The notes under the pieces: model-generated
Databases searched by the model: none
Seen by the model: the letters and a program-made list of their open reading frames with translations, nothing else
Told to the model about the DNA's origin: nothing
Translations under genes and position numbers: made by a program
Source of the DNA: Beroe forskalii
Taxonomy: Eukaryota > Ctenophora > Nuda > Beroida > Beroidae
NCBI GenBank assembly: GCA_011033025.1
Contig: WFMF01000545.1
Span: forward strand, 1-64,000
DNA: 64,000 bases
Reading direction: 5' to 3'
In this document: positions 26,695-61,322 of the stretch, one piece after another
How the letters are laid out: the number at the start of each line of letters is the position of its first letter
Numbering within the stretch: position 1 is the first letter of the stretch

Positions 26695-26965
26695 CGCTAA
26701 GCCGCGCGCAGCATTTTGGCCCTTTTAGAACACGAAAATGTTCCAAAAGTGCCAATTTGGCCCCCGGAACACGAAGCTATTCCAAAGGGCCATCTTTTGC
26801 CCTTTTGGAACACGAAGCTATTCCAAAAGGGCCAATTTAACCCTTTGGAACACGGATACTGTTCCAAAAGGGCCAAACGAAAAAATAGGTATCGAATAGG
26901 TATCGAATAGGTATCAAATAGTAAATATTCCATATGACTATTTTGAATTTGGCCCTTTTAGAACA
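26695..26965. repeat. hairpin array of GGCCCTTTTGGAAC words
   Basis: TTTGGCCCTTTTGGAACACG and its inverse ATTCCAAAAGGGCCAA alternate at least five times, each pair forming a 12-15 bp stem with a short GAAGCTA-type loop. Three units of AATAGGTATCG (26884-26920) break the array. It has the same build as the array at 58233-59355 but an unrelated word. Confidence 0.8.
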
Positions 26966-27035
26966 CCGTACGCACGCACGCAACCTCCACATTTGGAGGG
27001 TCAGATCACATTTGTGCACTCGTCCTCCAGTTCCC

Positions 27036-27106
27036 AAGCCCGCATAGGTGTTTGCTAAACACCTATACGATACGCGCGCAGCGGGTACAAACACCTATGC
27101 GGGCTT
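27036..27106. repeat. 19-bp-arm inverted repeat
   Basis: AAGCCCGCATAGGTGTTTG at 27036-27054 is inverted at 27088-27106. The segment GCGGGCTTAGGAACA after it recurs at about 58767, so the 58.2-59.4 kb palindrome carries a relative of this piece. Confidence 0.85.
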
Positions 27107-27235
27107 AGGAACATAAGTGTGTGTACGCGCCGCGCGCTTCCCTATGGGACACAGGGGTATTCACTATTCGTGCTTATGAATTTAACACTAACAGTACATA
27201 AGCCAAGTAACAAAAGTTTCATCCGACCTTAGACC

Positions 27236-28352
27236 TAATAATAATATATAATATAATTATTTTGCCATACAGCAACTCGATTAGACATTAAACTTATGCC
27301 ATCACATTTTATCATTTTAGCATGTACCCTTACTAAGGTACTCAGAATACAACTATCTATTTTGCATACCAAAATTGTTTGAAAGTCCCTAGAAATTGAC
27401 AATCAGTACACATTGCACGCTAGAGTTCAGGTGCTTGATCACACTATCTTCTCAACACTGTTGACAACCCCACTTCTGATGAAATGTCTCTTGTTAGGCT
27501 CATCAACCTTCTTCCTCTTCAGCTCTGCTATTAGAGTCCTGTGTGCAGCTCTTTCATCATGGGACCTGTCTGGAGACAGGAACACCATCTTATACTTGTC
27601 CCTTTTGCTTAGTTGGGGAGACTTAGAAATGACATCTGATACAATCGAGGAACTGGTCAAAGTAACCCTTACAGGCCGTGGCCTTCCATCCTTAACCTTG
27701 CCCACTCGAGAAACCTCCATCTTTGGTTTCTCTCCAATCTCTTCCATAATGCTGCACATCTTCACATTGAGGTCCTCCTCTGCCAGACCAAACACCATGA
27801 TATTGCGGCTCCTGTCCTCCTCCTCAACAACTGTCTTCACTACAGACACAATGCTGGCTGGTGTGACTGATGACTGCCCTTGCTGTCCTGACTTCACAAC
27901 AGAGCTGTAGCTCTTGAACTCCTCTTTGACTGTTTCCTGGACAGATGATTTCACACATGATGTGACTGCACTCAACTGTTCATCTTTAAACTCCAGCAAT
28001 TGCCTCTGAAGCTGTACCACATTCTCCTGCGACTCAATCAGTTTTCTTTGCAACACAACCATCTCACCAGAAGTTTGGTTGAGTGGAGATATCTTCTGAG
28101 ACTCATCATACTTCACCTGCAAGTTATGATTCTCCTCCTCCAATCCTCGAACAGTACGGTGCATATCTGTTATATGGACAAATGCTTGACACAGCATTGC
28201 AGCAAGTTTGCCCTTTTCAATTGTTTCACAGTGTTCAACAGTCAAATCCTTGGTACTTGGGCAAGACAGAATTCTTAATTTCCTCTTTATCCACTTATCC
28301 CACATGTCCACATTATCTTCAGTATGATCCATCACAACAACAAAACTTTGCA
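27236..28352 (-). mobile_element. ORF1-only LINE-like element, copy 2
   Basis: Reverse-strand copy. The 3' end is at 27236-27275 with the degenerate stem TTGCCATACAGCAA and an AT tail; the 5' end is near 28350. The protein frame 27439-28332 is open throughout. Compared with copy 1 it lacks three codons in the AEEDKEDLN segment. No MITE is inserted. There is no ORF2. Confidence 0.75.
27439..28332 (-). CDS. LINE ORF1-like RNA-binding protein, 297 aa (copy 2)
   Basis: Starts MDHTEDNVDMWDKWIKRK, the undisturbed family start. It has the coiled coil, then NIMVFGLAEE, the RPRPVRVTL block and the basic C-terminus ending VVNSVEKIV. An intact frame in a repeat points to a young insertion or to selection. 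A longer frame from 28356 adds eight residues from the 5' flank and is less likely. Confidence 0.7.
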   Translation of the reverse strand: MDHTEDNVDMWDKWIKRKLRILSCPSTKDLTVEHCETIEKGKLAAMLCQAFVHITDMHRTVRGLEEENHNLQVKYDESQKISPLNQTSGEMVVLQRKLIESQENVVQLQRQLLEFKDEQLSAVTSCVKSSVQETVKEEFKSYSSVVKSGQQGQSSVTPASIVSVVKTVVEEEDRSRNIMVFGLAEEDLNVKMCSIMEEIGEKPKMEVSRVGKVKDGRPRPVRVTLTSSSIVSDVISKSPQLSKRDKYKMVFLSPDRSHDERAAHRTLIAELKRKKVDEPNKRHFIRSGVVNSVEKIV

Positions 28353-28502
28353 ACAAAGGGGTTCTCCACCAAGGTGTCCAAATAAGAAATGTTCAGTGAC
28401 GAGTTACTTCATTCATAAAGTGATGCACCTTCACAAAATCAAAATTCAGAATTTTGATAAAAGTTACATAACAGGGCTAATCCTGCACACTACCTGAATC
28501 AA

Positions 28503-28625
28503 ATGGCCTTTAATTTAGCCGGCCCCATTTCAACCGGCCATTTTTTAACCGGCCCTTTGGACAAAAATCTCAAAGTCATTTTTGTCCTTAAGGGCCGGTT
28601 AAATAAGGGCCAATAAGATATCAGG
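28503..28625. repeat. GCCGGCC hairpin repeat
   Basis: AACCGGCCCTTTGGACAAAA is followed by the inverted TTTTGTCCTTAAGGGCCGGT, giving a stem of about 18 bp. It is related to 25980-26300. Confidence 0.6.
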
Positions 28626-29258
28626 TATCTTATTTTCTGATTTTTTGCCTTTTTTATGAAGTGTGATGAATAAATACCGTAATGTATTTAATCATTGTAT
28701 TTATGTTCTCTGTTGAGCAAATACAGTCATTTTCGTAGTCATTGTACTAATTTATTTATGTCTTTTTTGAATTTGTGTGCAGTTATTTGTTTCCATCTGA
28801 AGATTTTTACCTGTTCATTTGTTGGTGTAGATGATTGTGTGACTCTATGATTGTATTCGTAAAGTGATAAAGTTTCAAAGTCTTTATTGGTGCCCATCAA
28901 GGCTTTTAGTATATTCGTTATATTTCATTTATATCTATTTATTTCAATTAAGACTTATTATAAAATCAAATATTCAATGAAATTCTAAATTGTCAATTAT
29001 TTGTTCTTACATGGATAAAATCTTCTGACTTAGATCTTATCATGTTGATAGAGTACTAAAATTTTAATATGAGTGAGTGTATTTAATAAAACTGCTGTCT
29101 TTCATTGAATATGAGTGAGTGTATGATATTTCACCAGAGACTATCTCTCCCACCTTTTGTATACTGGTGTTGACAATTAAAATTGTTTATTACTTTCCAG
29201 GGTCAGAATAATGTTGTAGTCAGTTGCTGAATTCATTGGCTAGATAGTGAACTTCTTG
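28626..29258. other. no gene seen
   Basis: AT-rich. ATATGAGTGAGTGTAT occurs twice (about 29068 and 29110). TTACTTTCCAG near 29201 is a plausible splice acceptor for the following gene. Confidence 0.4.
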
Positions 29259-29654
29259 ATGTCTGATGCTGCAGTCGGCTCTCAAGCCATACCTCTTGGA
29301 GGGATTATTGGTATTGCAGTGGCAGCAATTGCCGTTATTATAGTTGCTGTCATTTTGTTATATCTCCTGTGCACAAGGCTTGTAATGAAGCCAAAACATG
29401 GTCCAGATCTTGAAAATTCCAATGTCATTTATTCTGAAGTAACCAAGAATACCAAAAAAGAGACTTCATCATCAGAATATGCTCAGGTTGAATTCAAAAA
29501 ATCAGAAAAATTTAAAGAGCAGAAAAAGAATAAAAAGAAGAAAACCAAAAGTAAGGAAAAGGCTCCAATTTATGCAGAAATCCAGGGACATCAAAACATG
29601 ATTCATTCTCCAGAGCCAGCATATGCTAACATCAACATTCAATCATCTGTATGA
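29259..29654 (+). CDS. single-pass membrane protein or receptor tail with ITIM-like tyrosines
   Basis: 131 codons from ATG 29259. Residues 11-38 are one strongly hydrophobic helix (IPLGGIIGIAVAAIAV...LLYLLC). The tail is Lys-rich and Ser-rich with four tyrosines: VIYSEV, SEYAQV, PIYAEI and PAYANI. The first two fit the ITIM pattern [SIVL]xYxx[ILV]; the others differ only at position -2. Such motifs recruit SH2 proteins such as SHP phosphatases or, if the +2 residues suit, Grb2-type adaptors. There is no signal peptide before the helix, so this may be the last exon of a receptor: an AG within GATGCTGCAG (about 29272) would open it in phase 1, common for extracellular-domain receptors. Upstream exons were not found, and an in-frame stop precedes the ATG. 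The family is not recognised beyond this. Confidence 0.55.
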   Translation: MSDAAVGSQAIPLGGIIGIAVAAIAVIIVAVILLYLLCTRLVMKPKHGPDLENSNVIYSEVTKNTKKETSSSEYAQVEFKKSEKFKEQKKNKKKKTKSKEKAPIYAEIQGHQNMIHSPEPAYANINIQSSV

Positions 29655-29777
29655 GTTATGTTTCTTAAACATAGTGTTTAAAAATATCTATTGAACATAA
29701 ACTCATAAAAAGTACAAATATATTATCTTGAAGTATTAATATTTTGTCTATATATTCTTCCAAGATGTACTTAATCT

Positions 29778-30385
29778 GGTAAATTGAGCGATCCGTTGAG
29801 GCCAGTATCACGCCAGTACCGCGCCAGTAGCATGCCAGTATCACGCCAGTATCGCGCCAGTATCAGGTTTTCCTCACGCCAGATCGCCGCTGTCACGCCA
29901 ATATCGCGCAAGTATCCGCCAGTAGCGCCAGTAGCACGCCAGTAACGCGCCATCATCCAGTATCACGCCAGTACTGCGCCAGTAAGCCAATATCAAAAGT
30001 ATCGCGCCAGTCGAAGCTAACTTAAAGCCAGGACGCCAGTAACACGCCAGTATATGATCTGATACTGGCATGCTACTGGCGTCCAGGCTTTAAGTAAGTG
30101 TCAACTGGCGCGATACTGGCGCGATACTGGCGTGATACTGGCGTGATACTGGCGCGGTACAGGCGTGATACTGGCGCGATACTGGCGTGCTACTGGCGCG
30201 CTACTGGCGTGCTACTGGCGCGCTACTGGCGCCCTACTGGCGTGATACTGGCGCGATACCGGCGCGATAACGGCGCGATAACGGCGCGATAACGGCGTGA
30301 GATAGGCCTGATACTGGCGTGATACTGGCGCGGTGCTGGCGTGATACTGGCGCGATACTGGCCTCGACGGATCGCTCAATTTACC
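29778..30385. mobile_element. 608-bp foldback element with 8-bp TSD, satellite arms
   Basis: CTTAATCT is duplicated exactly at 29770-29777 and 30386-30393. The ends GGTAAATTGAGCGATCCGT and its inverse are TIRs with at most one mismatch. The arms consist of about 25 units each of 10-11 bp, CACGCCAGTAT variants on the left and GTGATACTGGC on the right, so the element folds back on itself almost completely. The 8-bp duplication is as in hAT. No coding capacity. Confidence 0.92.
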
Positions 30386-30393
30386 CTTAATCT

Positions 30394-31739
30394 TAACCAA
30401 TTAATGAAAATATTATATAGAACAGATTTGGACATGCTGATTGCTCCCAAACCTGCCAGATTGTTATAAGTAGGGTGTTCTCAAATTGTAGTTTAGCCAT
30501 TATATATTTTACTTTCATGGAACCAATCACCAATGGATGTTTTTTAATTATTATATATGCAATGCAAGTGGAAACAATATGGTTCTACAACCTTTAGTTC
30601 CATATATACATAAAACCTAAACATTATGTGGTGTGAGACCTTTGGTAGTATATATTCAAATATACATTCAAATATATTTGACCAACAAAGGTCATATCCA
30701 AGACATTAACGTAGACTTATTTGATTGTGAATAGGAGAAATATAGACATTATCATAATTGATTTAAAATGCTGGACCTCAGTAATCAAGAATTACTATTA
30801 AAGGAGCAAATTGCCAGAGACATTGGAGAAGGTAACACCTCATATAATATATATTTGAGTACTTGGAACATATATAAGACTCTTCCCAATATTGCACTGT
30901 CTATAAAAAGTTTTAAAAAGAGTTTGAGAATTGTAATGATAAATCTGTTAAAGAATGTTCAAGAAGAAGAAGAAAAAGAATATGGCTTTTCCATTTTAAT
31001 TAAATTGTCATGCTGCATTGACCCTTTTTAGTTTGGAGTAGGTACTATTCAGAAGTCCTATGGCTATCAAGGTTTTGGGATCTTTGTAATGAAATTATTC
31101 TCATATAAGTATAATGTTAAAAGCTAATTTTGTCTCTTTGAGAATGGAAATATAATGGAAATTCACTTAGTTAAAGAATAGAAAAGTACAGGTTTTTGTG
31201 TTTATAATATTATCAGAGATAGGTGCAGCTGCACATAGTTTTTAAGACAAGTAAAAGGGGGTGCATAACATAGGTACATGATTAATTTTTATAAGTTAAT
31301 TTTTATTACTAATTATACAATGTTTTAATATTACATTTTTACTTTTTAATTGAATAATTATATGTTAAATGGATATGAAGCTATAAACATTGATGAGTTT
31401 TATTCTCGGTAGCCTAAGATAGCAGTGTTTGGCCAATTCTTGACAGAAGGTTACAAGACACATTTTATCCAGGCCATTCAGATACTAAACAACAGCACTC
31501 CTTCTTGAATTTCATCCCATTCACTACCTAAATCACATTTTCTTGAATTCATCCTACTAACTTACTAAAGTATATAAGTGTGCAAACATTATATTATGAT
31601 GTTTCAGTTGAACAATTTTAGGAAGTAAATTCATTCCTTCACCTAGGATACTTCAAAGGCTACTTGGTGTACCTGATGTAGGTTATATGCTAATATGTTA
31701 TGTGGTCTTTGCATCACTCCTGATTCCACAGATCATGTC
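30394..31739. other. sparse region; possible short 5' exon
   Basis: The ORF at 30768-31031 (+) starts MLDLSNQELLLKEQIARDIG and meets a possible donor (GAAG then GTAACA) after about 21 codons; beyond that its composition is AT-rich and unconvincing. It could be the first coding exon of a gene running into the damaged sequence to the right. Nothing else is seen. Confidence 0.25.
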
Positions 31740-35249: not shown

Positions 35250-35349
35250 NNNNNNNNNNNNNNNNNNNNNNNNNNNNNNNNNNNNNNNNNNNNNNNNNNN
35301 NNNNNNNNNNNNNNNNNNNNNNNNNNNNNNNNNNNNNNNNNNNNNNNNN
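35250..35349. other. assembly gap, 100 N
   Basis: Exactly 100 N, the usual placeholder for a gap of unknown size. Confidence 0.99.
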
Positions 35350-36311: not shown

Positions 36312-37000
36312 GGGGGGGGGGTGTCACTGTCCCAATTGTCCCAAACTCGAGAAAAAGTGGGTTGGGACAGGGACATTTGGGACAAATGGGACAGTGAAAA
36401 TGATACAAATGGGACTCAAAAATTAGGAAAATTGGGACTGGGAAAATTGAGATAATTGGGACAAAGGAGACAGAGATTAATGGGTCTCTAAACGTGAATT
36501 GGGATAGGGAAATTTGGGACAAATCATGGAACATTTGGGACAAATGTGACATTTGAACAAAAGTGACGGAGACAACTGGGGCTCAAATGATTGTGTTTTT
36601 GAGCGGCAGTTTAGTGTTTTTGTTTTACAGCCTGTTACATTGCTTGATTAATGATTATTGCCAGAGAGTATTGCCAGAGTCTTGAAACAGGGAAATTAAC
36701 AGCGCTTATCACGCTCCCGAAGGCACTTGCTGCGTTGCAACTGCCACTGTGTTTTCCCATCATAGGTTTTGGGATAGAGAAATGGGAACACATAACCAAT
36801 GCAAACAAACACAACCAAAATATGTATTGTAGTATGAATATAACTTTCATTTCGATGATAGAAAAACTTGGATTAATGTTAAAAAATAAATGTCTGTTTT
36901 TTTCAACTTTTTGTTTGTCCTTAATGTCGCAGTTGTCCCAATTGTCCGAAAAACCAGTCCCAAACTCAGAAAAGTAAATTTGGACAGTGACACTCCCCCC
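36312..37000. mobile_element. TIR element with GGGACA words
   Basis: A G-run followed by GTGTCACTGTCC (36321-36332) is inverted as GGACAGTGACAC and a C-run (36982-37000). The left part is filled with TTGGGACA/AATTGGGACT words (36350-36550); the right end has TTGTCCCAATTGTCC and CAGTCCCAAACTC. No transposase; the ORFs here are incidental. A TSD is not clear because of the G/C runs. Confidence 0.7.
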
Positions 37001-37089
37001 TTTAATACTAGCAAAAGCCCGTGTAAATAAGCAAGAATTAAGGGGGGTCAATAATAAATATCAAAAGTGTGTTAAGTGTTGTCATGACC

Positions 37090-42359: not shown

Positions 42360-42915
42360 ATATATAGCATGATGGGTGTCTAAACCCATGTTTTTTGGGG
42401 CGCTGAATCGATTGCAAGGGTTATTTTTAGTCTCTGACCATCACATAAGCCATAAATTACCACGCCCACCCTCTATCGTGGGAATTTTTGAGTCATTTTC
42501 ACATGATACATTTCCAAATCAAAATGTGGCATGTTAGGTGTCTAAACCCATGTTTTTTGGGACGCTGAATCGATTGCAAGAGTTATTTTTAGTCTCTGAC
42601 CATCACATAAGCCATGAGTGACCACGCCCACCCTCTATCGTGGGAATTTTTGAGTCATTTTCACATGATATATTTCCAAATCAAACTGTGGCATGTTAGG
42701 TGTCAAAACCCATGTTTTTGGGACGCTGAATCGATTGCAAGGGTTATTTTTAGTCTCTGACCATCACATAAGCCATGAGTGACCACGCCCGCTTTTATGG
42801 TAGAAATGTTTGAGTCATTTTCACATTTCATATTTGCAAATCAAATCTTGGCATGTTAGGTGTCTATTAGACTGTCTATAAGCCCATGTTTTTGAGACGC
42901 TAAGTCGATTGGTTT
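42360..42915. repeat. 162-bp tandem repeat, about 3.4 units
   Basis: GGTGTCTAAACCCATG recurs at 42375, 42537, 42699 and, altered, 42859 (spacings 162, 162, 160). Each unit carries CGCTGAATCGATTGCAAG, TTAGTCTCTGACCATCAC, a CCACGCCCAC box and GTGGGAATTTTTGAGTC. The last unit is the most diverged. Confidence 0.93.
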
Positions 42916-44067
42916 AACTTCTCCTTTATGACTTTATCCATGGATGTAGTGATTCACCTTGAGGCAGAAATCACCTTAGAGGAAATTTTCTTGTAATGAA
43001 GTGTGGTGGATTATGGATCCGAATAGCCATCTAATTTTCTTGGTTCTTCCTATGTAAACCATGCATGCTCTGAAGCTCTCACAGGACAAGGGTTATCCAT
43101 GACCTGAGATGCCGCAATGATTCTCACGGGTAGTAAGGGTCCTGAACTCTGCTGTTTGGGGAACAAAAGCTTTATTGACAAATCAAGAGCAATTAGTTCC
43201 CCATCTTTATCTTTGACCAGACTGTTATCTTTGGTGCCTCAATGCCCTATAGTTCCAAATATAAAGTCTTATTGATCTAAGATGGAAAGCTCAGTGTTGG
43301 AAGAATCGCTGACTCTGATTATCACTTGTTTTACATTCCACGTCGTGTTATATTATCTAGCCCTGTGTGGATTAGATTCTTATGCTGCTTTCATAAAAGT
43401 CATGATCTGAGAGTTTCTTGTCCTCAATACTAGACAAGTTAATGGATAGTTCAGATTTTCAACTGCTAAGCTGACTGACGAGTCTATGATTTATGACACT
43501 CCCTCTGTTTTCATTTCATTTCAAAATCCATTATTGGACTGATGTCACAACTCACATGTATTGAATGGGTCAATTTCATGCTTCTGACAGAATAGAACCC
43601 ACCCTTTTCAGCATGTCTGGTACTTGGGCTAATTCCCATATCTGTATAAGGAAATTGCAGAGTTGAGGACTCTTCGTTCCTCCTTTTTCATTATGTATGC
43701 ATGACGCACTGGGAGTGTTGCCTCCACATATGACCAGTTTTTGTCCTCTAAGAGGAGGAGTGATGAGCTCTAGATTTTGTTTTTCTGGGGACCAATTTCC
43801 ATGCGCTTGTCTGGAGTTCAACAATACTCCTCATTCTGAGTTGCTAGCATCTAATTGATGATGTAAGGCTGACCCTGACCAACAAAAAATCTTCTGGTGT
43901 TTCACTGTCGCAGCACGGAACAGTTTGCTCCAAAATTCAGTTCTTTTAACTGATATACTGATATTTCCCACACCCCAGCTTCCCTAGTTGAAACCTCTCC
44001 TGCTTCTCGAAACTCCGGAATTTGAGCTAGGAGCTTCTCTTGCTTCAGGGAGGGAAAGATTCATCGC
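42916..44067. other. no host gene seen
   Basis: Unremarkable sequence. It may include decayed upstream parts of the LTR element that begins to be readable at 44068, but nothing is recognisable. Confidence 0.35.
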
Positions 44068-45531
44068 ATGTCCATTCCCAGAAAAGCTATAAGCTGCACT
44101 GGTTCCGAGAGCTTTTCTCCTGTGTGTCTACAAACCTTAGGTACTCTACCTCGATATCAGGTGATTGCCGAAGATGAGACATCTTTCTCAAATCCGGATG
44201 ATTTGATCTGTATTCCACACTCCCTTACAGAGGAAATAATTAAACTCTGTCATGACATTCCCACAGGGGGACATATCGGTAAGCCGAAAACCCTATCTAA
44301 AATTCAGTCCCGCTTTTACTGGCCTCGAATGGAACTTCAAATATCCTTGTACATTGATGCTTGCGAAATATGTATTAAAAAGGCCCAAAAGAAAAAGCCC
44401 ATTTCTCCACTGCAGCCATTCAACGGTACCCATCCTAATGATATCATGCAATTCGATATTCTAGAAAATATGCCTTCAAATGTGCATGGTTTTAGTAGTA
44501 TTTTGGTGATGATATGCCGTTTTACTTGCTGGCCGGAAGCTGTCCCACTGAGAAATACCAAAGCCACAACAGTCGCCAAGGCACTCCTAGATAACTGGAT
44601 AGCCCGGATGGGTTGCCCAGTCCAATGCCACAGTGACAGAGGTCCACAATTCACTTCGGAAGTAATGCAAATCGTATATGATCTGATGGGGATACATAAA
44701 ACTTTTACATGCGCCTATAGGCCGTCCTCTGACGGTGCTGCAGAGGCTGTTGTTAAAATTGTCAAAAACCTTTTGAAAGGGTTTTGTATGGAGAATTCAG
44801 CACGCTGGCCAGATTTACTCCAGCAATGCCTGTTCGCTTATCGCACAAGTAAACATAGCAGCACTGGCTATACGCCGTTTTTCCTCCACCGTGGCCACAA
44901 CGCCAGAATTCCTTTAGATATCTTATTTGGCACATTTAACCAAAAGAAATTCAATTCTCGGCAGGAATACGCGTATGATCTATACAAAACCCTCAAGCAA
45001 ACTTATGATTATGTTGAAAAGAAATTGGGTCAAAACCGGGTTTTCATGAAAACAGCTTATGACAAGCGTTCCAAAATAGTTCCTTATAAGCCTGGACAAT
45101 ATGTGTATGTATGGCGTCCACGCCCACCACACAATAAAAACAAATTCTTTGACAATTATTTCGGGCCGTTCAGAATCATCAAGAAGATCACAGACTTCAC
45201 TTACAAACTCGATATTGGTTCTAAATCCCGAATGCACGATGTTGTTCCACATGACCTTCTTAGGTTGGCCCCTCAACAACCTGATTCAGGTCCTGTAAAA
45301 ACTCATGAATATGATCCCCCGTGTCTAGATTTAGATCATCGGTTAGAAATCATTCCTGAGCACCCTATTGAGATTGAATGTCAAACTGATGACGTCACTC
45401 CGCCAGCTACGGACGCGCCTGAGCGCCCTGTTATTGTCTTGCCTGCAGATGCTAACAACGGAGTCATTCCACGGCAATTACGACAAAGGGACGCAATTAG
45501 ACGCCCTGACTTCTATCAAGCTGGATTCTAA
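44068..45531 (+). mobile_element. Ty3/Gypsy LTR-retrotransposon fossil, integrase region
   Basis: The 487-codon frame is an integrase of the Ty3/Gypsy type: an HHCC zinc-binding N-terminus, a catalytic core of the DDE family (HSDRGPQFTS region) and a C-terminal chromatin/DNA-binding part (YKPGQYVYVW, FGPFRI). Gag, protease and reverse transcriptase are not present beside it and no LTR pair was found, so this is a truncated fossil. The long readable frame suggests a moderate rather than great age. Confidence 0.85.
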
Positions 45532-46481: not shown

Positions 46482-46672
46482 ATATACGCTTAGAGCATGG
46501 CTTGGGATGCGCTAATAAAAATTATTGCACGAGGCGAAGCCGAGTGCAAATAATTTGGGTTATCGTCACGAGGCGAAGCCGAGTGCGATAACCCCAGTTA
46601 TTGCACGAGGCGAAGCCGAGTGCAATAACTGTAATTAGCGTATCCCAAGCCATGCTCTTAGTGTATTAGCCA
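46482..46672. mobile_element. foldback with three GCACGAGGCGAAGCCGAGTGC hairpin words
   Basis: AGAGCATGGCTTGGGATGCG at 46492 is inverted at 46634-46660. Between the arms, ACGAGGCGAAGCCGAGTGC occurs three times in the same orientation (about 46528, 46570, 46605). Each lies within its own TTATTGCAC/GTGCAATAA-type inverted pair. The word is of a kind I have seen widely in aquatic invertebrate genomes. Confidence 0.85.
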
Positions 46673-46696
46673 ATGTGAGGAAAACGATATTAAAAC

Positions 46697-48402: not shown

Positions 48403-49190
48403 CACTCAGTTTTTTTTATAAGAAACTGTCTATAAGAAACTTAGCCTAGGATTTCCGAAAATTTAAGAAACTTAGCCTAGAATTTCGGAAAAATTAAGAA
48501 ACTTCACTGATTTACAATTAAGAAATTAAGAAACTTCTAGCCTAGAATTTAGAAATTTGTGTATAAAACTTATTGCAACTGAAATTCTTTAACATGATAT
48601 GTTTGTTTATGGGGCTGCGCCCCAGACCCCCATTTTTTGATTATGAAATATTCCGAAACTAATCTAGTACTTTATTGAACTTCTATTACAGTATTACACT
48701 GGATATGTGATAATTGGATCATAATATAGAATAGAAATTTAGAAAATGAATCTTTCATGATTTTTCGGTTTAAAGTAACACGCCAGATACTAAAGCACAA
48801 AACAGAAATTTAGAAATTGTTGTTGCAACAGGACACTATTACAGTTCCATATCTATTTCCAAAAGTTCCAAGCATTATAGGATTGAGATATTATCTAAAT
48901 TTCAAAATTTCAAACTTTTTTGGAAGAACATTTGATGAAGATCCCTGAACATTATTGTACATGCTTAAAAGTGTATAATTTAACTGAAAATATCAGAAGG
49001 TTCGATTCTAATCCTCAACTACAGTCTACACAGTAGGTTCCTATGTTGGAAATTTCGTAGACATTTTTCGTACGGTATGTCGGTATGTAGAATTAAGAAA
49101 CCGATTAAGAAACTTTAGGCTCAAAATCGTGAAAAATAAGAAACTTGTAGCCTAGGATTTCAATAAGTTTCTTATAAAAAAAACTGAGTG
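48403..49190. mobile_element. 788-bp TA-flanked MITE, Tc1/mariner-like
   Basis: CACTCAGTTTTTTTTATAAG plus AAACT forms perfect 25-bp TIRs (48403-48427 and 49166-49190), flanked by TA at 48401-48402 and 49191-49192. Subterminal units TAAGAAACTTAGCCTAG repeat three to four times inside the left end and once or twice inside the right. The motif GGGGCTGCGCCCCAGACCCC sits at about 48611. No transposase. Confidence 0.92.

Positions 49191-49530: not shown

Positions 49531-49562
<32 letters not shown>
49531..49562. repeat. (GT)n microsatellite
   Basis: About 15 uninterrupted GT units. Confidence 0.97.
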
Positions 49563-49564
<2 letters not shown>

Positions 49565-51485: not shown

Positions 51486-51551
51486 CTTTCTAGGAAGAGA
51501 GATATTCAAAGATGTACCAATAAGAAATGAGAAAAATATGAATAGAATAGA

Positions 51552-51583
<32 letters not shown>
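51552..51583. repeat. (ATT)n microsatellite
   Basis: About ten ATT units, 70 bp upstream of the syntaxin start codon on the minus strand, so in its 5' UTR or promoter. Confidence 0.95.
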
Positions 51584-51584
<1 letters not shown>

Positions 51585-51585
51585 A

Positions 51586-52015
51586 TCTAGACAGCATAAA
51601 TAAATATACCATCGAGCCTCTTCACGTAGGCATAACAAACCCTTATCAAAATATTAAAAAAACAATCTGATAGATCTCTTAATAAGTTAATAAACACTTT
51701 CTAAAACTGGAAGAATAGATGAAATAAAGAATGAGGAACTGTAGGACCCTTACCACACTAAGGCATGGGACATGACCCGAAACTAAGTTAATGACACATA
51801 AATGGTGGTCCATCTTAATAAATCATAATGATATACTTGGGGTGAAGAATGAATAAAATGCAAGCTAAGAATAGATGGATTTATTGACTTAGACCTACTC
51901 AAACAAAAAGTCAATATTGCAGTGTACTTAGACTAGCTTAGAAGCTTAGAGCTACAATTGTGGTTTTGAGTATTTGAAACTGTGTTGCATTCTCATGTTT
52001 ACTAACCCCACCTGG
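51586..52015. other. no gene seen; syntaxin upstream region
   Basis: AT-rich and without ORFs of note. It probably holds the syntaxin promoter. Confidence 0.4.
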
Positions 52016-52612
52016 CAGTAACTGTTGGCACTTCCACAATCCAGTGGCAGACATTTGTCCACTATGGAAGTATGGAAGACAGCAGAAACTGTCAAATGCT
52101 GGCAGACAGTTGGTGGACATTGATTGACTCTGCTAATGTCCGCAGCAGTCCTCTAACTTCAGTTCTTGCAGAATCCACAAACATCCACCAGTGGACACAA
52201 TTTGGATAAACTTTCACTGGCTGGCTGGAATAGTATGCATCAGACATTTGTTTGCCAGACAATTGTTTGCCAGCCACAGAAAATTTCCACCATGAACTCT
52301 GTCCATGGTGTACAATTGTTTGTGGCAGACATTCATTCAAAAGCCAGTGTAAAATTCCTTGGACCCTTGGTGGACAAATGTTCAGTGTAGACAAACTTTC
52401 AGCCGTTTTAAATCCTTGCTCCCTCCTGGTCTGCAACCCAAAGACCCCTACATCAGACATCCCTTAGACACTCAGTCAGTCCATGAGAAAAAGTTGGCAG
52501 ATTCCTAGTGGACATAAGAGGAGTCTACCAATGTCCACCAACAGTCTGCCAGCATTCAAAGGTGTCCACATTCATCTGTGGAAGGCAAATGTCCACCACT
52601 AGATGTGTGTAA
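52016..52612. mobile_element. foldback MITE with GTCCACCA / GGCAGACA words
   Basis: AATGCTGGCAGACAGTTGGT (52096) is inverted at about 52537-52556. The outer ends CAGTAACTG and CAGTTACAC are inverted at 52016 and about 52612. Between them, TGGTGGACA, GTCCACCA, TTTGCCAGACA and TGGCAGACA occur about 15 times in both orientations. Confidence 0.75.
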
Positions 52613-52669
52613 CTGTTTTTTGTATATTATAGCTCCTAAGACCTTCAATTCCATGCCATTCCTACTGTG

Positions 52670-52935
52670 ATTAGAGCTGGATTACACAACTGTTTAAAGT
52701 TGACTGCCCTAGGTGCTCCTTAAAATGGCACAAACTGCAGTTTAAGGTCCACCTTTAAATTCCGTATTACCCAATGTGTTCCTTTAAGGCGATTTTATGG
52801 TGCTCCTTAGTGAGGTAGGTCGACCTTAGAATTCCCAAAAAATCGGCATTACCCAATCCACCTTGTCCTTAAGTTGGTCCTTTAGCTGCCTCGTCCTTAG
52901 TGTTGTAAAGTTTTAAACTTTACAACACTACTTTT
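52670..52935. repeat. repeat with CCTTA/TAAGG words and a 31-bp palindrome
   Basis: 52899-52929 is a palindrome with 15-bp arms (AGTGTTGTAAAGTTT) around a single T. The preceding 230 bp repeat TGCTCCTTA, GTCCTTTA and ATTACCCAAT words. Confidence 0.8.
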
Positions 52936-53079
52936 TACAATCAAATTTGAGAATGTATAACTTTATTGAAAGTTGTTTGTTTCACTGCATCAATGATCAA
53001 TCACATCAAACATATAACTATGATGAATGATAACTTAAATTATGCACATTCCAGGCATGTTTTTGCTATGTATTCAAAA

Positions 53080-53225
53080 ACCCTATAGGCACCAGGGTAC
53101 CGTGCGCAATAAATTATTACGCACTGGAGTGCCAAAATCAGGATTTATTACACACTGTAGGTCATAATAATTTATTATGGTGCAGTGGAACAGTGCGTAA
53201 CAATTTATTTCACACAGTTGAGCAA
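53080..53225. repeat. AATAAATTATTACGCAC-type repeat
   Basis: GTGCGCAATAAATTATTACG, TTATTACACACTG and GTGCGTAACAATTTATT recur in both orientations. It probably belongs with the foldback at 53311. Confidence 0.5.
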
Positions 53226-53310
53226 ACAGTACCTTCAAATCTTGATTTAAAACATTTCCTTGTGTTTGAAAATATTGTCATTTTTTCGAGTAATTACGGT
53301 GCATAATTCA

Positions 53311-53453
53311 GTTTAATAACTCGTAAAAGTTACTAAACTCAGCATTAAAAAACCTCGGCCTTCGGCCTCGGTTTTTCAATGCCATATTACACACTCGGGC
53401 CTCCGGCCCTCGTGTGTAATATTACGTTTAGTAACTTTTACTCGTTACTAAAC
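53311..53453. mobile_element. 143-bp foldback with GC hairpins
   Basis: 28-bp TIRs at 53311-53338 and 53426-53453 (GTTACTAAAC core, few mismatches). Inside are two perfect or near-perfect hairpins: CCTCGGCCTTCGGCCTCGG and ACACTCGGGCCTCCGGCCCT with CGTGTGT. It has the same plan as 46482-46672. Confidence 0.85.
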
Positions 53454-53459
53454 CCTTCA

Positions 53460-54540
53460 ATAATAAGTTATTCAATGTGATGAAATTAATTTTAACTTCC
53501 ACAATGACAAAATATCAAAATTGATAAAAACACTGGAAAGCCAGTAAAAATAAACTGATGTGTTTTAAATACTTAAATAGAAAATCTTTGAGCTAGTAGG
53601 GAAACAACTAAATATTGCTCATTTAAACACGATTCAAGTAGGGGGGTCACATGAAAAATCAACTTGGACGATTCCCCACAAAAATGGTATCAAAATGATC
53701 AGCACGATGAGCTCTTTCAAACAAACTAAGTTTTATTGTTTTTTTCGATAATTTAAGAGAGTTATAGGCTGCACGTGGGCAAGGAGCCGCGCTCAAAATC
53801 TGCAACGCCGAAATTTCGCTTGAAATTACGCACATCTACTGTCCTCACAAAAAACGCGATTAAATGGAAAATCATCGCTCAAATTACAAGATAAAGCATG
53901 GAAATCAAAGCTTAATCCTTTCTCTAACGTTTCTTGAAATTTTCAGGGAAATACATTATGTGGAAGTAGAATTATCAATCTCCAAAGTCAACTGATCAAA
54001 ATTCCGACGTATTTCGTCCATAACTCGGCTCAGGATAGACGTAAAACAAATCTGAAAACACTGTTTGAAAGCTCGCAAGCGCCCCCGTGCATTCCCACGG
54101 TGCGCGCAATTCTTAATGTTGAAGCGTAGCACGTGCGCGCTGATTAGTTTCGTTGTTTGGGTATATTTTGTCAGTTTCGCGAGTCCCGGTGAAAAAATGG
54201 GTTTTTTCAAATTTCTATCTTCCCCATTTTTCATCGAATCATCATGAAACTTTCAGAAAAGTTGAAAAACATAATTAACAGCCATCTGGACTAATTTTTT
54301 CTGAAAATCGAATCATGAGACGAGATATGAGCATTTGTGTACACAAATTTTGTAAAATGCGTCATTTTAGGCCATAACTTCCGTTAGGAGCAAAATTTCT
54401 GGAAAAAATTAGTCCGGATGCTCGGTCTATGTGTTCTATGGCATATATCCAAATTTCAGACAGAACACATTTATACATCTTGAGTAAGGACACTTTTTAT
54501 GTGAAAAAATGTGTTACACTTTTTATCATAAGAGAGATAA
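53460..54540. other. no gene seen
   Basis: ATTAGTCCGGATG (about 54408) and the inverted CATCTGGACTAAT (about 54282) form a loose inverted pair with AAAATTTCTGGAA/TTTTTCTGAAA nearby. No exon is recognised. Confidence 0.4.
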
Positions 54541-55655
54541 GATAATTATTTTGCTATATAGCAACTCGATTAGACATAAAAATTATACCATCACATTTTA
54601 TCATTTTAGCATGTACCCTTACTAAGGTACTCAGAATACAACTATCTATTTTGCATACCAAAATTGTTTGAAAGTCCCTAGAAATTGACAATCAGTACAC
54701 ATTGCACGCTAGAGTTCAGGTGCTTGATCACACTATCTTCTCAACACTGTTGACAACCCCACTTCTGATGAAATGTCTCTTGTTAGGCTCATCAACCTTC
54801 TTCCTCTTCAGCTCTGCTATTAGAGTCCTGTGTGCAGCTCTTTCATCATGGGACCTGTCTGGAGACAGGAACACCATCTTATACTTGTCCCTTTTGCTTA
54901 GTTGGGGAGACTTAGAAATGACATCTGATACAATCGAGGAACTGGTCAAAGTAACCCTTACAGGCCGTGGCCTTCCATCCTTAACCTTGCCCACTCGAGA
55001 AACCTCCATCTTTGGTTTCTCTCCAATCTCTTCCATATAATGCTGCACATCTTCACATTGAGGTCCTCCTTGTCCTCCTCTGCCAGACCAAAAACCATGA
55101 TATTGTGGCTCCTGTCCTCCTCCTCCACAACTGTCTTCACTACAGACACAATGCTGGCTGGTGTGACTGATGTCTGCCCTTGCTGTCCTGACTTCACAAC
55201 AGAGCTGTAGCTCTTGAACTCCTCTTTGACTGTTTCCTGGACAGATGATTTCACACATGATGTGACTGCACTCAACTGTTCATCTTTAAACTCCAGCAAT
55301 TGCCTCTGAAGCTGTACCACATTCTCCTGCGACTCAATCAGTTTTCTTTGCAACACAACCATCTCACCAGAAGTTTGGTTGAGTGGAGATATCTTCTGAG
55401 ACTCATCATACTTCACCTGCAAGTTATGATTCTCCTCCTCCAATCCTCGAACAGTACAGTGCATATCTGTTATATGGACAAATGCTTGACACAGCATTGC
55501 AGCAAGTTTGCCCTTTTCAATTGTTTCACAGTGTTCAACAGTCAAATCCTTGGTACTTGGGCAAGACAGAATTCTTAATTTCCTCTTTATCCACTTATCC
55601 CACATGTCCACATTATCTTCAGTATGATCCATCACAACAACAAAACTTCGTCAAA
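54541..55655 (-). mobile_element. ORF1-only LINE-like element, copy 3
   Basis: Reverse-strand copy with the perfect 3' stem TTGCTATATAGCAA at 54551-54564 and the same 5' start near 55650, preceded by TTTTTGACGAAG as in copy 1. The ORF (start MDHTEDNV at 55632) carries a 2-bp insertion near 55037 that shifts the frame between segments 55632-54958 and 55258-54728. Otherwise it is almost identical to copies 1 and 2. ORF2 is absent. Confidence 0.75.
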
Positions 55656-55820
55656 AAGACTTTTTCCAACTCCACTTAGCATTCACCTGGATCTTCCAAC
55701 CATCATCATAATTTCGTGCTAGTACTTTGTGCGCAAGTACGCGTTGTGACACCCCTAATTCAAGTCATGAGGGGCCAGTGAAACAAATGGACTTGATCAA
55801 TAGACCACCCACCCAACATT
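55656..55820. other. no gene seen
   Basis: Short unremarkable spacer between copy 3 and the AACGTT-rich region. Confidence 0.4.
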
Positions 55821-56864
55821 TTTGGTTGCACAGGAGTTGCACAACGTTTCATATGCAACCTACAACGTCTCAGGGAGGTTTCATAGGGGGTGAATTGTCG
55901 TGTGCAGGGAGGTTGCTTACACTTAAGTGAAACGTTCCTCATGAAACGTTGCGAAACGTTTCACTTGAAACGTAATTCCACCGTTTCTGCAACCTATTTG
56001 CGGACGACAATTTACCCCTATGCAACCTTCAAGCAACCATTGTAAGGTTGTAAATGCAACGTTTTAAAACGTTGGCACATTGTTGCTAAAATGTTGCAAA
56101 TAACGTTGCTGCAACTTACCCAAGGCGAACCCCACGTCAGCAACAATAATATTGAAGAGCAATATTGTTCCGATTTGTGTTTGTGGCTGAAGCAGCTGTA
56201 ATGGATTTGGCGCTGCTTCAGCCAAGACCTTGTTCAGGAGCTGCAGGCTCTTGACCAAGGTCTTCCAAAAGTCCTTTCATTGCACTCTTGAGTACAAAGA
56301 AAGAGAGGATGTGATGGATACCCATCAGCATCCAGAAGGCCTCATTAACCCCCAGAGGAGGTTACATGAGAAGTCGAATACTCACCATACTTACTTCAGT
56401 AACGATGTTATCGCGCTGAACATCACGTTGCAAAGAGGTTGCATTGCGTCATTTAGTTACCCTTCGAATATATCTCTCACGATAAAAAATTTTCTTGCGT
56501 TTGAAAATTCATTTTGATATAATTTGAATTGATGTCATCTCAACGTCCTTAAATTACAATTTTCTTGTTCTTTAATACTCGAAGCAAAAATTTTCACTCA
56601 AACAATCATTCATGACTGTAATTGGGCTTCTTTATCAACTTATTTCGTGAAACAAAATTGCAGAAAAACGTTGTTGTGATGTTTTCAAAACGTTTCAAAA
56701 ACTTTGTTACTCGTTATAATTTCTACCACAATCTACAGTATTTCTTTGACAAAGTGGCATGGCCGCGGCTTGTCAGAAGTTGTCTGACCCCATCGGCAGA
56801 CCCTTGCTAAAACACAAATAACCCTGTGTGGCTCTCACGCCGCGCGCTTCTGCATCACAGGAAG

Positions 56865-57115
56865 TCGAAATGTGGAATGTTGCGCCGCGCGAGCGAGGGT
56901 GGGGTAACAATTAACATCCTACGACGCGCGCGGTGCCGCGGTGGTAGGGTATTATCATTCTTCATTTCTTCGAGTACGACGCAACCAATTCAGTCGACGG
57001 ACGTTGCCCGTCTAAATTTCTTCTGACTGGATGGCGAGAGCGCAAAGTGACGTCCAGTCGTCCAAATGTGGAACGTTGCGCCGCGCGTGAGGGTGGGGTA
57101 ACATCCTACGGCCAA
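56865..57115. mobile_element. MITE copies of the 16135-16326 family
   Basis: GAATGTTGCGCCGCGCG, GAGGGTGGGGTAAC...CATCCTACG (twice, near 56895 and 57091), CGACGGACGTTGCCCGTC (about 56996) and GTGACGTCCA reproduce the family's words in the same order. Confidence 0.7.
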
Positions 57116-57214
57116 TTCAGACAACGTCTGACATTGACAAGCCGCGTCTTTTGCTAAAAATGTATAACATCAGTTCGCGATGCGCAGCACGCTTCCCCAG
57201 ATTTAGATTTAGAA

Positions 57215-57775
57215 CAGGGAAGCGCTTGGAAACGTTAAAACAACGTATTTCAAACGTATCAAAGTAACGTTGCGTACAAGTTACCTCTAAACGTTTAAAC
57301 AGCGTAGTTCAGACGTTTCAAAGTAACGTTGCATACAAATTAATTGGAAACGTTAAAACAACGTAATTCAAACGTATCAAAATAACGTTGCATACAAGTT
57401 CCTTGTATTTTGTAAACGTTAAAACAACGTAGTTCAGACGTTTCAAAGTAACGTTACATACAAGTTATTTGCAAACGTTAAAACAACGTATTACAAACTT
57501 ATCAAAGTAACGTTGTATACAAGTTACTTTGAAACGTTAAAACAACGTATTTCAAAAGTTTCAAAATGACGTTGCATACAAGTTACTTGGAAACGTTAAA
57601 ACAACGTATTTCAAACGTATCAAAGTAACGTTGCATACAAGTTACTTGGAAACGTTAAAACAACGTATTTCAAAAGTTTCAAAGTAACGTTGCATACAAG
57701 TTACTTGGAGACGTTGAAAAAACGTATTTCAAACGTATCAAAATAACGTTGCATACAAGTTACTTGGAAACGTTT
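57215..57775. repeat. 59-60 bp tandem repeat, about 9.5 units
   Basis: The unit contains GAAACGTTAAAACAACGTA, TTTCAAACGTATCAAAGTAA and CGTTGCATACAAGTTACTTG. Two or three variants (GTATC or GTTTC; AGTT or AGTATT) alternate along the array. Confidence 0.93.
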
Positions 57776-58232
57776 AAAATACGTTCCATATGCAACGTTC
57801 CTTAACGTTGGATTTTTGAAGTTGCTGAAACGTTCCATTGGAATTATTTTGTAACGTTTCAAAAGAAACGTTTAAATGTCGTTTCACAACGTTGCCTAGG
57901 CAACGTTCCAAAAGGTAACAATTGAAACGTTTAGTATACGTTGCAATAGGTTGCCAACGTTGCAACCCCGTTGCAACCTTTGCAACCTTGGTAAATGTCT
58001 TGCAACGTTACTGCAACGTTGGCAACCTTTACTAAGCTAGAGTTGCTTGGTAAACCCCGCACCTGAGCTGTTGCAGCCGGCCGGGGACTGCCATGCCGCC
58101 CGTTGCAGCTAAGCTAAAATTTGAAATTAGATTGATTGGACGTGACGACGTGACGTTGAAAGTTGACTGCAGCGCAGATTCCAGATTCGGTTTAAAGCTC
58201 ATCTACCCAATTTCCATCCTATCTACGGTGTA

Positions 58233-59355
58233 CCAGAAGGATAAGTTATTGTACCTTTTTTTTAAAATAGAAATAACTTATCCTTCTGGGACTGAGTGTG
58301 TCCCAAAGGATAAGTTATTTTTATTTTTGAAAAGAAAATAACTTATCCTCTGGTATTTGAGTGTGTCCCCAGAAGGATAAGTTATTTCCTTTTTTTGAAA
58401 AGAAAAATAACTTATCCTTCTGGTAATACGAGTGTCCCAGAAGGATAAGTTATTTTCTATTTTTTGAAAAAATAAAATCCTTATCCTTCGAGTGTAAAAT
58501 CCAAGAAGGATAAGTTATTTTTATTTTTGAAAAGAAAATAACTTATCCTCTGGGACACGAGTGTCCCAAGGATAAGTTATTTTATTTTACAATGTAGGTG
58601 TATGATATGCAAACATCTTTCCTTGGGGAAGCATGAAGCTGCACTGCGCAGGTGAGTCTGGCAGAAGTGTCATACCCGGTGGCAAATTATGACGCATTGC
58701 CTGACCCCCTTGCTAAACATGTATATCCCTGTCTGGCTTGTGCGGCGCGTACACCCTGCACCCATGCGGGCTTAGGAACACGACTGCAAGTTGTGGCGCT
58801 ACGCTAGGGGGTCAGCTCCTAAGCCCACATAGGTGTGTGTACGCGCCGCGTGAGCCAGACAGGGATATACGTGTTCAGCAAGGGGGTCAGGCAACGCCTG
58901 ACAAGTGTGCCACCAGGTATGACACTTCTGCCAGACTCGCCTGCGCAGTGCAGCTTCATGCTTCCCCAAGGAAAGATGTACGCATACACACACCTACATT
59001 GTAAAATAAAAATAACTTATCCTTCTGAGATGTCCCAAGCATAAGTTATTTTTATTTTTCAAAATAAAATAACTTATCCTTCTGGGACACACTAATACCA
59101 GAAGGATAAGTTATTTTTTCTTTTCAAAAATAGAAAATAACTTATCCTTCTGGGATTTCCTCGTGTCCCAAGAAGGATAAGTTATTTTCTTTTCAAAAAT
59201 AAAATAACTTATCCTTTCTGGGACACACTCTGTAACAGAAGGATAGTTATTTTTTCTTTTCAAAATAGAAAATAACTTATCCTTCTGGGACACGTGTAAT
59301 AAGGATAAGTTATTTTTTCTTTTTTAAAAATAAAAAATAACTTATCCTTCTGGGA
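58233..59355. repeat. 1.12-kb giant palindrome built of AACTTATCCTTCTGGGACAC hairpins
   Basis: The outer parts 58233-58590 and 59008-59355 each hold five or six alternations of AAAATAACTTATCCTTCTGG and its inverse, so each outer arm is itself a row of hairpins. The inner arms 58591-58797 and 58800-59008 are inverted copies of about 200 bp with few mismatches (ATGTAGGTGT, TTTCCTTGGGGAAGCATGAA, GCACTGCGCAGG, GGCAGAAGTGTCATACC). The centre is near 58798. ORFs of 60-90 codons across it are by-products. Confidence 0.93.
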
Positions 59356-59367
59356 GGCTATATACTG

Positions 59368-59780
59368 GGTGAACTGCAGTTCATATGAAGTCGCCGCGAA
59401 CTTCATATGAATCCATATGAATTCATATGAGTTCATTTGAATGCGTTTACCAGTTCAATAAATTTTTATATGAATGAACTTCATGATTATATGAATTCAT
59501 ATGAACTTCATATGAACTCCACCAAGTTCATATGAACTTCATATGAATTCATATGAATTCATTAAACACGGATGAACTAGTTCACCAAAATTTAGTGAAC
59601 TGAGATGCATATGAACTCATATGAACTCATATAGCATTCCAGTTCGCCTTGAATTCATATATGAACTAGGAAGTTCATCTCGCGGACTCCAGTTCAACGC
59701 AGTTCAACGCAGTTCAACGGAGTTCAACGCAGTTCAACGGAGTTCAACGAATTCATCTTGAAGTTCATCTAGAAGGTCAA
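59368..59780. repeat. GAATTCATATGAAC palindromic-word array
   Basis: TTCATATGAA, GAATTCATATGAAC and AGTTCATATGAAC recur about 20 times; the words are themselves palindromic. The right end changes to CAGTTCAACG units (59690-59750). A second block with the same words and orientation lies at 61538-61690. Confidence 0.85.
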
Positions 59781-59821
59781 AATGATAATTTAACAGATAT
59801 TTCGGGGATGGATCAAAACAT

Positions 59822-60097
59822 GGATCAGCGACGCCACGAGAGCCGCACCGCAGTGCCGCAGTGACGCCAGGGCAGTGCCATGGTGAAGCCACGAAAGGAC
59901 GCCACTACTGGGCAACGATGAAGCCGGCAAGGGCGCCACGGTGACATCATGGCAGTCATGGCAGTGCCACTGTGAAGCCATGGCGTCTTCATGGCTTCGT
60001 CGTGTCGTCCTCGTGGCTTGCACCATGGCACTGCCCTGGCGTCGATGTGGCGCACTGGCGCTACCATGGGGCCCTCTTGGCGTTGCTGCTCTGATCT
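59822..60097. mobile_element. GC-rich foldback (GCAGTGCCA / GCGCCACGGTGA words)
   Basis: GATCAGCGACGCCACGAGAG at 59823 is inverted, with mismatches, at about 60074-60096. The interior repeats GGCAGTGCCA, AAGCCATGG and GACGCCA in both orientations. Confidence 0.65.
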
Positions 60098-60104
60098 ATG
60101 CCCG

Positions 60105-60360
60105 ATAAGTCTCTCATTCCGGTTGACTGCTGAGTGACGTCACCTATTGAAAGGCTTTTTTCAATTTTAAAGAGGCTGTTAAACTTCACCAAATTAGCTG
60201 CATCTTGATCCATTTCACTAAAGGGGCTTCCAAAATCAAATAGTTAAATCAGACTCAAGTCTTGAGCTCTTCCATAAACGATTTTTCGTACTCTTGTTAA
60301 GTGTACAGTCACGTGACAACTAAAAAATTTCACTTACGTCATGAATTAACTCTAGTCACT
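60105..60360. other. no gene seen
   Basis: Unique-looking spacer between foldbacks. Confidence 0.4.
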
Positions 60361-61322
60361 CTACGACCACTCAGTGACTCGACGACTCAAATCGACTCGA
60401 TGCCTCAACTCGACGACTTGATTTGACGACTCTCTGACTTGTCTCAACGACTCGACTCGACGACTACTCTCAACGACTCGACTCGACGAATCGACTCGAC
60501 GACTCAACTCGACTCGACGACTCGACGACTCGACTCGACGACTCGACTCGACGACTTGACTCGACGACTCGACTCGACTCGACGACTCCACTGCTCGACT
60601 CGATGACTCGACTCGACGACTCGACTCGACGACTCGACTCGACGACTCGACTCGACGACTCGACTCGACTCGACTCGACTCGACGACTCGACGACTCGAC
60701 GACTCGACGACTCGACGACTCGACGACTCGACGACTCGACTCGACGACTCGACTCGACGACTCGACTCGACTCGACTCGACTCGACTCGACTCGACTCGA
60801 CTCGCCTCGACTCGACTCGACTCGACTCGAGTCGTCGAGTCGAGTCGTCGAGTCAAGTCGTCGATCATCGAGTCGTCGAGTCGAAGTCAGAAATCGAGTC
60901 GAGTCGTCGAAGTCGTCGAAATCGTCGAGTCGAGTCGTCGAGAGTCGTCGAGGTGTCGAGTCGAGTCGAGTTGAGTCGAGTCGTCGAGTTGAGTCGTCGA
61001 GTCGAGTCGAGTCGTCGAGTCGAGTCGAGTCGAGTCGTCGAGTCGAGTCGTCGAGTCAAGTCGTCGAGTCGAATCGTCTAGTCGAGTCGTCGAGTCATTG
61101 AGTCGAGTCGTCGATTCGAGTCGTCGAGTCGTCGAGGTGTCGAGTCGAGTCGAGTCGAGTCGTCGAGTTGAGTCGTCGAGTCGAGTCGAGTCGTCGAGTC
61201 GAGTCGAGTCGAGTCGAGTCGTCGCTTCGAGTCGTCGAGTCGAGTCAAGTCGAGTCGCGTCGTCGAGTCGAGTCGTCGAGTCGAGTCAAGTCATGAAGTC
61301 CAGTCATTGAGTCAAGTCATTG
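60361..61322. repeat. 0.96-kb CGACT satellite palindrome
   Basis: 60361-60828 is made of CGACT and CGACGACT units; 60829-61322 is made of the inverse AGTCG and AGTCGTCG. The switch is at CTCGAG (60826-60831). The arms are about 470-490 bp. Long Ser/Arg and Asp/Leu/Thr frames on both strands come from the repeat. Confidence 0.97.

Follow-up and report, generated by a model that had tools for sequence, protein, structure and literature searches.

How can a series of repeat islands in one stretch of DNA follow the same building plan when the short words that fill them are unrelated? The stretch in question, called the window below, comprises the first 64,000 nucleotides of contig WFMF01000545.1 of the ctenophore Beroe forskalii (C631:1-64000 in our numbering; the assembly holds 216 Mb in 1134 contigs). 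A preliminary description had listed twelve islands in it (A through L, from 26.7 to 60.4 kb) and suggested that one mechanism may have made them all. Comparison with copies elsewhere in the genome suggests another answer, to which we assign a probability of about 0.6: the islands are mostly non-autonomous DNA transposons from several unrelated superfamilies, and their subterminal arrays are putative transposase-binding sites, with a private word for each family. A common function, not a common enzyme, probably unifies them. The shared plan with unrelated words was largely borne out and extends to transposase-bearing Merlin elements; it also holds that no single named family covers the islands, which fall into several insertion classes.

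Word density was expressed for each island as its repeated-9-mer share and compared with 100 dinucleotide shuffles per island and with six control stretches (0.01-0.16). Eight of the 12 islands are denser than every control: A (0.41), B (0.58), D (0.44), H (0.30), I (0.59), J (0.44), L (0.77) and, barely, E (0.18 against 0.16 in the densest control). The claim that the islands are packed with words thus stands for these eight and not for K (0.16), C (0.13), F (0.12) and G (0.11), which do not exceed the densest control, although each is denser than its own shuffles. The shuffles of L climb to 0.56 because its composition is simple, and the commonest single 9-mer occurs 10 times in H, 3 times in G and 3 times in K, no more often than in the richest of their shuffles (12, 3 and 3). 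The reported mirror order, forward words on the left and inverted words on the right, is strong in two islands only, B at 29.8 kb (index 0.91) and L at 60.4 kb (0.98; the left half has 47 forward words and the right half 38 inverted ones, with 0 on the wrong side); the remaining islands give 0.14-0.76 against 0.25-0.73 in controls. Word order says little in A, D, I and J because their word is itself a hairpin or palindrome. These four are hairpin trains, a second form of the word-array architecture. Word periods are 41 bp in A, 37 bp in D, 59 bp in H, 65-69 bp in I, and 13 and 5 bp in L.

The following islands belong to two elements:

B, 29778..30385, no strand assigned: near-palindromic element with terminus GGTAAATTGAGCGATCCGT.
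J-K-L, 59356..61687, no strand assigned: one element with terminus GGCTATATACTGGGTGAACTGCAG followed by arrays J, K and L; the right terminus is missing in the window.
J, 59356..59790, + strand: left terminus and palindromic word array TTCATATGAA / CAGTTCAACG.
K, within J-K-L, between J and L: GCCAC-type words.
L, 60345..61330, no strand assigned: CGACT array with a single polarity flip near 60828.

The arms of B are packed with the 11-bp word GCCAGTAtcac, the right arm carrying the inverted form. A genome-wide search returned 91 match rows, in which the two strands of the palindrome count separately; such counts are lower bounds throughout, as about 40 candidates were scored per search. The window copy is flanked by an 8-bp target-site duplication (TSD), CTTAATCT, at 29770-29777 and 30386-30393. 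After removal of one incomplete locus and of loci read twice on opposite strands, 29 loci yielded 21 distinct copies; the 8-bp TSD is exact in 9 of these, as compared to 0.35 after shuffling, and matches at 6 or more of 8 bases in 14. GG is present at both ends in 27/29 loci, one end being altered in L013 and L017. One B copy (L016/L031, C290:44225-44870) lies between mutually inverted flanks, with another B end ~1.1 kb away.

J, K and L had been described as separate islands at 59.4, 59.8 and 60.4 kb, a view we reject: they form one transposon, because seven other loci align across all three and the element recurs whole. Six of these loci align from 59356 onwards; the seventh ends inside J. 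When J, K and the stretch to 60340 served as a query, 40 places were scored (the window's included); in 38 of them the match extends over at least 874 of the 981 bases, with identities of 88-100%. Both termini were readable in three of eight loci (copies without both were set aside), and the 8-bp TSD is exact in all three; GGCTATATACTGGG stands at both ends in L003, L004 and L005. The published Merlin signature is a 5' GG with duplications of 8-9 bp (PMC8101967). GG ends and 8-bp TSDs mark B and J-K-L as candidate Merlin-type elements, a signature and not a proof.

Since GG plus an 8-bp TSD is the Merlin signature, the genome was searched for the Merlin transposase domain. The PF12762 profile gave 36 matches, 35 of them over the cut-off, and loci were picked from this list before their sequence was seen: two with high scores (L133 and L134) and later a lower-scoring one with a long frame (L143). 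A word array lies upstream of the gene in all three, with repeated-9-mer shares of 0.37 (L133), 0.32 (L134) and 0.50 (L143). The proteins of L133 and L134 match DDE_Tnp_IS1595 with E-values of 8.4e-20 and 1.4e-19, and both loci carry a 27-base terminus, GGCAGTATCCAAGTTGCCCGACACACT, after which come seven words (TARTRGAM-KTCYAYTA) at even intervals. The three frames (L133:655-1548, L134:654-1547 and L143:622-1071) have N-terminal cysteines C35, C38, C47 and C60 in common, in a zinc-ribbon-like arrangement followed by a weak helix-turn-helix match. The IS1016 group, the bacterial relatives of Merlin, is described as being without the N-terminal zinc finger of other IS1595 members (PMC8101967). 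The PDB gave no hit to the L133 protein in a sequence search. Beside the Merlin gene, at L133:2083-2475, lies a separate foldback of 393 bp, which has ends GGGGCCATCCATAAAGGACGTC and words GGACGTCC.

A search with the 5' end of L133 located inverted partner ends around transposase matches, for example at C263:69513-71458 and C171:120483-123218. In the C263 element both ends are present (GGCAGTATCCAAGTTGCC), the 8-bp duplication is exact and a PF12762 match lies inside; its gene copy is broken. Eight palindromic words occupy its left end and seven its right end. Among the five elements in which both ends were read, the TSD is exact over 8 bp in three, matches at 7/8 in one and is absent from one (C1036, whose left end is altered); C263 and C171:120483 are the only two with a PF12762 match inside.

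The arrays of this lineage have a regular geometry. In five array stretches, 31 of 32 word-to-word steps measure 21-23 bp, which is two helix turns. Across the 72 TARTRGAM half-sites of 36 words (one distant eighth word in L134 was left out), positions 1, 2, 4, 6 and 7 are fixed in 71, 71, 72, 72 and 72, and variation is seen at positions 3, 5 and 8 and in the spacers of 5-7 bp. The third locus, L143, encodes a transposase 28% identical to that of L133 (over 136 amino acids) and has words unrelated to those of L133: GCACACCTGGG recurs every 11 bp in ~29 copies and TGGTCCTCTATCA every 13 bp in ~9. Arrays in transposase-bearing relatives suggest that the words are candidate docking sites for the enzyme that moves the element.

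The other islands show different insertion signatures, so that several superfamilies must be involved and a single enzyme is excluded:

I, 58224..59355, no strand assigned: hairpin train GTCCCAGAAGGATAAGTTATTTT.. flanking a 0.4-kb centre on either side; the right terminus is missing in the window.
A, 26715..26970, + strand: hairpin train with a unit of ~41 bp (TTTGGCCCTTTTGGAACACG..TTCCAAAAGGGCCAA) and right terminus ...GAACACCGTA.
C, 36312..37000, no strand assigned: G-run terminus with GTGTCACTGTCCC and TTGGGACA words; the copy is nested inside a larger repeat.
D, 46482..46668, no strand assigned: palindromic stretch that forms the left end of a longer element and comprises three hairpin words TTATTGCACGAGGCGAAGCCGAGTGCAATAA.
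E, 48403..49190, no strand assigned: TA-flanked element with terminus CACTCAGTTTTTTTATAAG, 31-bp words near the ends and a long unique core.
G, 53040..53459, + strand: ~420-bp repeat with hairpins and without a word array.
H, 55808..58027, no strand assigned: single 2.2-kb element with many AACGTT words; the right terminus is incomplete in the window.

Full copies of I run TACGGTGTACC..GGTACACCGTA, with termini TACGG or TATGG..CCGTA in 8/8 copies and TSDs of 5 bp in six and 6 bp in two. The TA..TA termini and the 5-6 bp TSD make I a probable IS3EU-type element; IS3EU (GingerRoot) has the same termini and a TSD of usually 6 bp, differing from the predominantly 5-bp duplications of I, and hairpin trains are unmentioned for it in the accessible text (PMC10045372). 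The array of A is the right end of a longer element that spans at least 25980-26970; its right terminus, read inward, is TACGGTGT, shared with I, and a left end was looked for and not found. Several I copies (flanks of, e.g., L090, L094 and L101) lie, as judged by eye, in or beside a nested GC-rich palindrome with a CACCTATGCGGGCTTAGGAA-like word, which recurs, also by eye, at 26980-27150 and 58690-58870 of the window.

E has a TA duplication of the Tc1/mariner kind: in 30 loci, TA precedes 29/29 left ends and follows 30/30 right ends found. Full copies of H run CCCACCCAACATTTT..AAAATTGTTGGGTGGG with 2-bp duplications; the TSD is 2 bp in 7 of 8 copies, as compared to 2.2 in shuffles (ten were fetched, and two without both termini were set aside). 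An 8-bp duplication considered for H was rejected, 2 bp fitting 7/8. H also contains a 59-bp tandem array at 57225-57779. The TSD of C is ~6 bp: in 10 copies with both ends found by pattern, out of 12 loci fetched, 6 bp are exact in four (0.5 in shuffles) and 5 bp in one; the window copy has no clear duplication.

D matches its 175-bp query at 100% in 11 of 40 scored places, the window's included. Its interpretation as a stand-alone palindrome with a TTA duplication was dropped because five copies continue rightwards while their left flanks differ; the right end was sought without success. Besides the window copy, G has at least 39 others in the genome. Its left end is preceded by A in nine fetched copies, its right end is full (CCCTTCA) in eight and followed by T (three) or AT (five), and the nine copies have no clear or longer duplication. 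F (52.0 kb) was seen in one other place only, inside a 1.5-kb stretch that is 98% identical throughout, in a search dominated by the commoner G, which was part of the same query, with 40 of 2024 candidates scored. It is absent from the other loci fetched, and F as a family is not supported on this basis. The stretch, window 51960-53490 versus G000:C381:731022-732547, may be a second haplotype or a recent duplication.

We propose that, in Merlin-type and probably in other elements, the array beside the terminus would be a tandem series of sites bound by the transposase of the family or by a helper DNA-binding protein. Words mirrored at the two ends would allow both ends to be captured; the number of words would drift by slippage or unequal exchange, mostly in whole units, and binding would hold the word core. 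One architecture would then come with unrelated words because each transposase lineage has its own word. Under this proposal a Merlin transposase would bind the words and may move B and J-K-L, and the same logic may extend to the IS3EU-type, TA, H and C families. The puzzle of one plan with unrelated words thereby becomes a rule that can be tested, in which the terminus is followed by an array of sites for the family's own protein. The preliminary description had considered a transposase that reads subterminal arrays, and the arrays in Merlin loci lend this idea indirect support, binding itself being predicted. It had also tied a common origin to a shared TSD or structural rule. TSD length differs between families, yet the structural rule survives because Merlin elements with a transposase gene likewise have a terminus followed by a word array.

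Several observations weigh against the binding-site proposal. Word arrays are in any case frequent across the genome: of 240 background tiles, 16 (6.7%) reach a share of 0.3. The density comparison is rough, with tiles of 300 bp set against Merlin stretches of 187-600 bp. The 5' side was read in this way at 3 of 36 PF12762 loci only, and the Merlin evidence amounts to two lineages because L133 and L134 are one; in the second, L143, the array is seen at the 5' side, with the right end and the true terminus outside the view. The fixed cores come from words located by similarity, which favors conserved cores, and helical spacing as a general rule is rejected, the periods of A, D, H, I and L being different. 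In B, seven of the 21 copies agree at no more than 4 of the 8 TSD bases. The B terminus is found in none of five Merlin loci checked (L133, L134, L135, L136 and L143), and neither is that of J-K-L, in a search that was not exhaustive. Finally, array divergence is not unique: in L133 and L134, the segment that separates array from gene is itself just 78% alike.

The alternative that survives best takes the arrays to be neutral by-products. Any seed close to an end would be multiplied, and transferred to the other arm, by slippage, unequal exchange and template switching in post-excision repair, and palindromic founders would be spread by transposases that read the termini alone. The way arrays change length fits this explanation. 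Measured to a central marker, the lengths of 16 of 20 readable B arms lie whole multiples of 11 bp away from the commonest one, and over eight copies of J-K-L the array ranges from 819 to 1955 bp, with a single polarity flip in six, next to a J and K part that stays 88-100% identical. The near-featureless CGACT array of L, the C171 element, whose two ends are 97% alike and whose array is 61% like that of C263, as if one end had been copied to the other, and the slippage and template switching invoked in the Galileo literature (PMC4168063) point the same way. However, copying between arms is not general. Of 42 B arms, 36 are closer to an arm of another copy and six match their own partner best, so the palindrome is old, with units coming and going within its arms; ongoing arm-to-arm copying as a general process in B is not supported. 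The two ends of C263 are 82% alike, and together with the 97% of C171 this suggests that end-to-end copying may also occur in Merlin. Also against neutral turnover are a word core fixed across 72 half-sites of two subfamilies amid variable spacers, and the arrays in 3/3 transposase-bearing loci read at the 5' side. Replication slippage, the other process named in the preliminary description, fits the change in unit number in B and J-K-L and leaves, on its own, the fixed cores and variable spacers unexplained. Plausibly, slippage or unequal exchange supplies the units and binding would keep the word core. We consider a purely neutral origin doubtful, if deserving of serious attention.

A bolder form of the binding-site proposal, which we regard as speculative and somewhat improbable, holds that the word arrays are lineage-specific recognition tags and that each transposase lineage, in several superfamilies, co-evolves with its private word. 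Word copies would be replaced together at both ends, and related elements would stop cross-mobilizing one another. The two Merlin subfamilies would then represent word replacement in progress, because the termini of C263 and C171 are identical (28/28) and the genes of L133 and L134 93% alike, as against arrays that are 61% and 68% alike in the same pairs, and because the ends of C171 agree at 97%.

A role in expression or silencing, with the arrays acting as transposase promoter elements or sources of hairpin RNA, for example, would agree with their position upstream of a TATA-like sequence and the gene in L133, L134 and L143. We think it quite unlikely, as the C263 element repeats its words, mirrored, at the right end downstream of the gene, and arrays are kept in both arms of non-coding families. 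That all islands are made and moved by a single transposase or replication mechanism, as first suggested, is highly improbable: the common architecture, the terminus shared by I and A, and the GG plus 8 bp common to B, J-K-L and the Merlin loci would fit, but termini are otherwise unrelated and TSDs of 8 bp (B, J-K-L), 5-6 bp (I), TA (E), 2 bp (H) and ~6 bp (C) already contradict it.

Drosophila FB and sea urchin TU elements have inverted ends made of short tandem units, a likeness in structure. An experimental precedent is Galileo, a P-superfamily element of Drosophila with foldback-like terminal inverted repeats (TIRs). Footprinting located a site for the THAP domain of its transposase in the long TIR, and further sites lie in internal tandem repeats; the authors suggest that such arrays may confer binding specificity on foldback-like elements (PMC3688188). 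In Drosophila mojavensis Galileo, repeat copy number changes inside the TIRs, and multiple binding sites are seen as seemingly convergent among different superfamilies (PMC3573991). The general idea is thus already in print, as the Galileo papers describe multiple transposase-binding sites. Galileo differs in its 7-8 bp TSD, its P-type transposase and its units of ~140-210 bp, as compared to words of 5-22 bp here (PMC4168063, PMC3573991). Tetris/DAIBAM, a non-autonomous foldback of Drosophila virilis, likewise has tandem repeats in its TIRs, but it is one family with a unit of ~220 bp (PMC4079207).

The Merlin superfamily shares the 5' GG, the 8-bp TSD and DDE_Tnp_IS1595 with the elements described here. 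Its Symbiodinium member Sy.m_F1 has tandem repeats and a region duplicated in opposite orientation, and other Merlins also contain tandem repeats; the accessible text describes no palindromic array with 21-bp spacing at both ends and proposes no binding role (PMC8101967). Coral miniature inverted-repeat transposable elements have a different architecture (PMC2872659). Literature searches, which reached some sources in part, yielded no matching precedent from sponges or sea urchins and no word arrays so arranged, whether in Merlin or across several superfamilies of a single genome. What looks new here is therefore the subterminal arrays in Merlin and in several superfamilies of the same genome. 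Merlin elements that combine gene and arrays offer a system in which binding is measurable, and arrays that seemingly arose in several superfamilies of one genome allow their origin and turnover to be compared side by side.

Outside the islands, three copies of one coiled-coil-like reading frame lie at window positions 16542-17516, 27439-28392 and 54728-55650; the 27.4-kb copy gave sub-threshold Pfam matches only. A tandem repeat with a 162-bp unit (3.1 copies, 91% alike) occupies 42367-42866, and an open frame of 501 amino acids at 44026-45531 contains a retroelement-type integrase with H2C2 and rve domains. Genes in the window include those for an ANAPC2-like protein, an SHQ1 protein and a LIM domain.

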